From an uncultured Pelagibacteraceae bacterium (GTDB lineage: Bacteria; Pseudomonadota; Alphaproteobacteria; Pelagibacterales; Pelagibacteraceae): DNA of 64,000 nucleotides. The DNA lies in NCBI GenBank assembly GCA_902610115.1, contig CACLUK010000002.1:19687-83686 (forward strand). The letters are read 5' to 3'. Positions 25,123 to 26,131 of this stretch are shown here, piece by piece; positions within the stretch are counted from its first letter, which is position 1; each line of letters opens with the position of its first letter. The notes beneath the pieces are model-generated. The model worked only from the letters and a program-made list of their open reading frames with translations, made no database searches and was not told the origin of the DNA. Both the position numbers and the translations under genes were made by a program.

Positions 25123-25791
25123 ATGCCTCAAAAGAAGAAAAAAACAAAAAAAGCAAAGAAAATTAAAAAAACTAAAAATGCAAAATTAAAGCCTGCGATT
25201 AAGGCTAAGACTCTTGAAAAAAGATCATCAGTTCCAGGTCAAGATGAAAAACCAGAAATTAAAAAAGTAAAAAAACAACCAACTGAAAAACGAGTATACA
25301 ATTTAAAAGACTTTGTAGTTTATCCTAAACACGGGGTAGGAAAAATAACTTCAATCGAAAAAGCAACCATTGGTGAAATAGATATTCAATTTTATAAAAT
25401 TCACGTGGAAAAAGAAAAATTGATTTTAACAGTTCCTATCAATCAGCAATCTAAATTAAGACCTATATCATCTATCAATCAAATTAATAAATGTATTTCA
25501 ATTCTAAAAACTAAGCCAAAAATCAAAAGAACAATGTGGAGTAGACGTGCTCAAGAATATGATCAAAAAATAAATTCAGGTAAAATTTATGAATTAGCTG
25601 AAGTAGTGAAGGATCTTAATAAAAATACTGATATTATTGCTGATCAATCTTATTCTGAAAGACAACTGTTTGAAAAAGCATACGAAAGACTTAAATCAGA
25701 ATTTGAAGCTGTTTTAAAAGTTAGCACTGAAGAAGTTCAAAAAAAAATGGATAAAGCTTTAGGTAGAGCAAAAATATCAGAGGACGCATAA
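25123..25791 (+). CDS. carD: CarD-family transcriptional regulator with Lys-rich N-terminal tail
   Basis: FVVYPKHGVGKITSIEKATIGEIDIQFYKIHVEKEKLILTVPI RID; N-terminus MPQKKKKTKKAKKIKKTKNAKLK. Confidence 0.9.
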   Translation: MPQKKKKTKKAKKIKKTKNAKLKPAIKAKTLEKRSSVPGQDEKPEIKKVKKQPTEKRVYNLKDFVVYPKHGVGKITSIEKATIGEIDIQFYKIHVEKEKLILTVPINQQSKLRPISSINQINKCISILKTKPKIKRTMWSRRAQEYDQKINSGKIYELAEVVKDLNKNTDIIADQSYSERQLFEKAYERLKSEFEAVLKVSTEEVQKKMDKALGRAKISEDA

Positions 25792-25796
25792 AAAAA

Positions 25797-25833
25797 CGCC
25801 CTCTTTAAAATTATAATAATTATAAAAAGGGCG
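25797..25833. terminator. Long imperfect hairpin between convergent carD and K/R-rich micro-ORF
   Basis: CGCCCTCTTTAAAATTATAA / TAATTATAAAAAGGGCG. Confidence 0.6.
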
Positions 25834-25850: not shown

Positions 25851-25922
25851 CTATCTTCTTCTTCTTCTCTTTTTTGCTTTCTTTTTAGTTTTCTTTTTAG
25901 CTTTTTTTCTTCTTTTAGCCAT
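25851..25922 (-). CDS. 23-aa Lys/Arg-rich peptide MAKRRKKAKKKTKKKAKKRRRRR (not in ORF track)
   Basis: ATG to TAG; upstream AAGGGAG SD 5 nt from ATG; 19 of 23 residues K or R. Confidence 0.7.
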   Translation of the reverse strand: MAKRRKKAKKKTKKKAKKRRRRR

Positions 25923-26131
25923 CTTTTCTCCCTTGTTTAAAACAAATCTTAATGATTCGTTTCTTAATTATTACATTAATTAATTAAGGATTCATGTCAA
26001 ACATAAATTAATTTACAAAATTGATTCAAAATTTTAATTTTTTAATTAATTTTTAATTTTTTAAAAAAATTAAAAAAAGTTAGTAATATCAATGTTTTTT
26101 TAAGCAAATTAAATAAGTTTAAATTTAATTT

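Follow-up and report, generated by a model that had tools for sequence, protein, structure and literature searches.

A short lysine- and arginine-rich peptide gene convergent to carD, conserved throughout the Pelagibacterales, with a probable nucleoid-associated product

Does a 23-codon open reading frame (ORF) made up largely of lysine and arginine codons, lying in a gap beside carD, encode a protein, and what would such a protein do in a SAR11 cell? The ORF was pointed out in a first-pass annotation of the window, the 64,000-nucleotide stretch of Pelagibacteraceae DNA analyzed here, which described a 23-residue K/R-rich peptide, a Shine–Dalgarno (SD) sequence AAGGGAG with 5 nt spacing, an upstream TTGACA and an orientation convergent to carD. 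All four were found as described, the SD at 25934–25928 and TTGACA at 26000–25995. The two facing genes are as follows.

25851–25922, minus strand: small ORF, ATG...TAG, with the product MAKRRKKAKKKTKKKAKKRRRRR; identified by conserved frame, synonymous changes, codon-sized insertions and deletions and zero lysine-to-glutamate changes
25123–25791, plus strand: carD, the convergent neighbor used as the anchor (Pfam PF21095, 5.1e-20; PF02559, 3.3e-12)

The peptide carries 11 Lys and 7 Arg among its 23 residues (18/23), with a charge of +18. Its K/R fraction of 0.78 is the highest of all ORFs in the window (runner-up, 0.56), and the maximum in third-order Markov windows of equal length (n = 25) was 0.50. 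This outlier status, together with conserved presence across the order, ruled out a chance ORF. A leader peptide of a downstream gene was also ruled out, as the ORF is directly followed by a terminator and then by carD on the opposite strand. The only candidate for a second genomic copy was a weak match within another gene that codes for nothing similar. That 25851–25922 is a real coding gene is nearly certain.

The first-pass annotation had proposed short-ORF synteny downstream of carD as a check, with loss of start, SD or frame in relatives as grounds for dismissal. Using carD, recognized by its CarD_C and CarD_TRCF_RID domains, as the anchor, the peptide gene was found in 205 of 214 Pelagibacterales loci in the same place and orientation; in the other nine, the contig edge is reached within about 115 bases of carD. 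Two collections were pooled for the count of 214 and some genomes occur twice, so distinct coding sequences are the better count: 79 in f1, the family to which the window belongs, and 23 in its sister family, f2. The start codon, SD and frame persist across the whole order. Of 89 carD loci sampled from other families of Alphaproteobacteria, several just as AT-rich, none had a peptide-like gene downstream of carD; the basic ORFs seen there were limited to two short ones that resemble chance (L218 and L266), and an older origin within the Alphaproteobacteria was rejected on this basis.

Several features of the surrounding DNA were recorded alongside. One unrelated alphaproteobacterium (L244) has a 125-amino acid H1-like ORF, MAAKATKKTKTSAKKATKSAAK... 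(MAAKATKK start), ~1.1 kb upstream of the carD stop. Contig breaks are unusually frequent next to the gene: 22 of 80 public contigs stop in the first 400 bp past carD, against only two in the 2.9 kb upstream, and single-cell relatives (L028, L047, L050, L059, L060, L077, L094 and others) break 80–320 bp past the carD stop, corresponding to about 25870–26110 of the window; amplification or assembly may be impeded by the high AT content of the gap or by the purine run within the ORF. In AG-920-C13 NODE_20, carD occurs at both contig ends in inverted orientation. CarD, whose neighbor encodes little more than a lysine-rich tail, itself has a lysine-rich stretch at its N terminus (25123–25230, plus strand), MPQKKKKTKKAKKIKKTKNAKLKPAIKAK, and the CarD open frame ranges from about 220 to over 300 amino acids between genera.

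Substitution patterns were then read within the families. In the window's genus, also represented by HIMB058 and numerous single-cell genomes in public records, 38 distinct DNA sequences encode 25 peptides of 21–25 amino acids; AGA, CGT and CGA alternate at codon 4 and AAG and AAA at codon 10, and every length change comprises whole codons. Across the 79 distinct f1 sequences, the A-to-G neighbors of AAA amount to 495 AGA (position 2), 242 AAG (position 3) and 0 GAA or GAG (position 1), and codons for Asp, Glu, Asn, Gln and Ile are absent. Because AAA never changes to GAA despite the common AGA and AAG, and because insertions and deletions are of whole codons, the ORF is under coding selection for a polycation. 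As these comparisons indicate, selection on the reading frame preserves K/R/A composition and not precise sequence: K, R and A residues interchange among the 79 sequences, composition being maintained while the exact sequence is not. Net charge spans +15 to +35 in f1 and reaches +53 in the long forms of f2.

The flanking elements that would drive and end transcription are listed below.

25928–25934, minus strand: SD sequence AAGGGAG, spaced 5 nt from the ATG; nearly all loci have an SD of the GGGAG/GGAG type ahead of the start
25995–26000, minus strand: −35 element TTGACA, conserved in all loci
25978–25973 or 25975–25970, minus strand: candidate −10 element, ambiguous between TAATGT and TGTAAT, respectively
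25940–25962, minus strand: 5′ leader hairpin AAACGAATC-ATTAA-GATTTGTTT at the predicted mRNA 5′ end, present in all clades with compensatory changes
25953–25959, minus strand: CGAATCA (complement TGATTCG), 31–36 nt after TTGACA/T, matching the extended GANTC/GcrA motif
25790–25833, minus strand: intrinsic terminator ending the peptide mRNA, CGCCC...GGGCG followed by T7, folded as the transcript 3′ end; the T-run overlaps the end of carD

An automatic simple promoter scan did not include the peptide-gene promoter among its predictions. In the 189 loci whose upstream region could be read, TTGACA/T and CGAATC are present in 189/189 at a spacing of 31–36 nt, and CGAATCA is exact in 188/189. CGAATCA begins the hairpin at the predicted mRNA 5′ end, and its pairing partner differs by clade: g1 and most g2 loci use GATTTGTTT; g4, g8 and f2 use a TGATTCG-type sequence; and g5, g7, g9 and g12 form an extended ATCACTTAA/TTAAGTGAT-type stem. 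Both arms differ in a compensatory manner in, for example, f2 (CAA/TTG versus CAC/GTG) and g12 (TTAAAA/TTTTAA versus TTAGAA/TTCTAA), with a further one between g7 (CACTTAA) and g9 (CACATAA). The first 36 nt of the leader fold with z of about −2 to −10, and the predicted 178-nt RNA with z = −3.85. Leaders of g7, g9, g12 and f2 (L131, L202, L166 and relatives) hold a second conserved element, CTCC/ACCTC, able to pair with the SD, which suggests translational control, a trait that the window's genus lacks. The Rfam search returned no family at the gathering cutoff for the leader or transcript; apart from tRNAs, matches were sub-threshold only, and a known RNA family was discarded as an identity for the transcript. 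Judged by its conserved elements, the gene is a genuine one-gene transcription unit with its own −35 element, leader hairpin, strong SD and terminator, kept throughout the Pelagibacterales.

The near-invariant CGAATCA could be conserved for either of two reasons. In Caulobacter, TGATTCG is an extended methylated GANTC motif for GcrA activation (PMC7987155), and CGAATCA fits this TGATTCG/YGAKTCK pattern in 188 of the 189 loci. A CcrM-type RAMA domain was detected in 11/11 SAR11-order genomes and GcrA in 10/11, the exception being the window's own genome (G000), which is 75% complete. From the motif match, backed by its conservation, we infer GcrA control of the peptide promoter: the site would be methylated by CcrM and bound by GcrA, activating the promoter and tying peptide production to the replication cycle, and the 5′-terminal hairpin would stabilize or tune the short mRNA. 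An RNA-level reason is about as likely as this one. That CGAATCA is retained for its place in the 5′ side of the leader hairpin, serving stability or translational control and not as a GcrA/CcrM site, we put just short of an even chance; this accords with a hairpin found in all clades with compensatory changes and with the location of the motif at or just past the predicted +1. It does not readily account for a 5′ arm that is fixed while the 3′ arm varies freely, or for CGAA being mostly unpaired in the predicted folds of g5, g7, g9 and g12, yet conserved.

The −35 plus CGAATCA arrangement is essentially unique to the peptide gene in 11 genomes. With the motif in the opposite orientation, only chance-level matches were seen in SAR11 promoters, and a wider regulon was discarded, as TTGAC plus the motif in either orientation gave no other promoter above chance. 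This lack of further promoters weighs against GcrA control, as does the place of the motif just downstream of the predicted transcription start. In the window at large, GANTC is under-represented (121 versus about 176 expected under a first-order Markov model), a shortage that might be expected of a genome with CcrM. Pelagibacter has been reported to lack CtrA (PMC2877005), and the GcrA/CcrM motif gives a point at which methylation control could be tested in such a group.

Peptide length varies by clade. Crown genera g1, g2, g3, g4, g8 and g13 have peptides of 19–35 amino acids, basal genera g5, g7 and g9 have 29–38 and g12 has 34–58 with PAKK motifs, for example MAKKRKKAAKKKVAKKPAKRKVAKKKPAAKK...; f2 has proteins of 40–99 amino acids, MEELKVIFAKAKKKAKKKAAPKKKRKAAKRKPAKKK..., with KAAPKKK/PAKK repeats. 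The f2 and g12 forms contain 0.56–0.63 K+R, 0.24–0.28 A and 0.06–0.08 P, and the window form is without P. Place, leader and composition suggest that the f2 long form (MEELKVIFAKA start) is homologous to the f1 form (MAKRRKK start). The CarD tree groups the short-peptide genera, with support (SH-aLRT 99), in one clade within f1 and leaves f2 outside it. Shrinkage of an H1-tail-like protein would be the simplest reading of this series. The alternative, repeat expansion in f2, draws on the 40-amino acid forms that also occur there and on the absence of the gene from every outgroup beyond the order.

The product probably has a nucleic-acid-binding, nucleoid-associated role, by analogy with other basic tails. 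The best explanation, to which we give an even chance, is that it is a minimal histone-H1-tail-like polycation, a disordered counter-ion protein bundling polyanions, most likely the chromosome, from a GcrA/CcrM-activated promoter. Such a polycation would neutralize and bundle nucleic acid as do H1 tails, AlgP and HctB. The likeness to H1/HC2 tails put forward in the first-pass annotation, which named nucleoid compaction, RNA binding or ribosome association as possible roles, gains support from the PAKK- and KAAPKKK-bearing forms at the same locus, and the conserved GcrA-type motif weakly favors a chromosome-related role. Composition by itself does not tell whether the target is DNA, RNA, the ribosome or polyphosphate. 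A ribosomal or rRNA-binding protein filling an rRNA pocket instead of coating DNA is suggested by eL41 (25 amino acids) and bTHX (24–27), both K/R-rich, which the 19–25-residue size, K/R content and universal clade conservation recall; the strong SD and own terminator also suggest high expression. We consider this unlikely, as a range of 19–99 amino acids and a freely drifting sequence with tandem repeats are unlike a fixed-pocket protein, neither Pfam nor NCBIfam yields a matching ribosomal model and the gene is not linked to ribosomal genes. Similarly improbable is a role in balancing the charge of some other polyanion (polyphosphate granules or RNA condensates) or in standing in for polyamines generally: charge, not sequence, is under selection and the KPAA-repeat protein AlgP is associated with polyP granules (PMC9239181), but no polyP gene link was seen in the neighborhood. 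Least credible by far is a transcript working mainly as a regulatory RNA, with the 3′ end of carD as one conceivable target and the ORF incidental or dual-function. Its structured conserved leader, shortness and constant convergence to carD are set against zero K-to-E changes, synonymous AGA/CGT/CGA exchange and codon-sized indels.

Returning to the H1-tail-like polycation, a bolder form of it, which we hold to be doubtful, is that the SAR11 chromosome is packed by a protamine-like peptide of 19–25 amino acids, the remnant of a longer H1-tail-like protein that shrank as the genome was streamlined, with production timed to replication through a CcrM-methylated GcrA site. If true, the peptide would be among the smallest known dedicated chromatin proteins and a direct output of a GcrA/CcrM cell-cycle module still kept in bacteria reported without CtrA. 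Few cell lineages are as abundant as SAR11, whose DNA is packed into very small cells; a nucleoid peptide would bear on DNA compaction in minimal free-living cells. Gene callers have probably overlooked this universal SAR11 gene so far because it falls below the length that they usually accept, and its product is invisible to standard proteomics because trypsin yields pieces of 1–3 residues.

The gene is apparently undescribed in the family libraries, solved structures and literature searched. Pfam, NCBIfam, PHROGs, PDB sequences, phage records and viral contigs gave no match, in searches that low-complexity filtering restricts; phage copies were thereby set aside, and the sole candidate for a solved-structure relative (E = 0.57) was meaningless. 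Literature on SAR11/Pelagibacter histones, nucleoid or small proteins yielded no description of the peptide. No length class matched a curated H1/Hc1/Hc2/AlgP-type profile in Pfam or NCBIfam, so formal membership in the bacterial H1-like proteins, which the peptide resembles in composition, is not claimed; the lysine/alanine(/proline)-rich repeats of that group are nevertheless present in the f2 and g12 forms.

Among known systems, eL41 and bTHX share a size of 19–27 amino acids and K/R richness with the peptide, whereas their length and sequence are fixed and the SAR11 peptide, with no family match, spans 19–99 amino acids and drifts freely in residue pattern. The C-terminal tail of eukaryotic histone H1 and the protamines resemble it in composition and charge density, although it has no globular domain. 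Chlamydial Hc2/HctB, described in PMC2848022 as lysine-rich with a strain-variable repeat number, parallels the lysine-rich, repeat-variable SAR11 family but is 165–237 amino acids long and linked to a developmental cycle, and the SAR11 peptide is without a profile match. AlgP combines a 124-amino acid N-terminal helical domain with a 195-amino acid tail, and its repeat peptides bind DNA (PMC9239181). The C-terminal KPAA-repeat domain of Pseudomonas AlgP/PhaF is likewise a K/A/P low-complexity, strongly basic, predicted disordered, DNA-binding tail. Unlike AlgP, with its N-terminal domain and long tail, the window protein is the tail alone, at 23 amino acids and without proline; the AlgP/PhaF tail is most similar to the long forms of f2 and g12.
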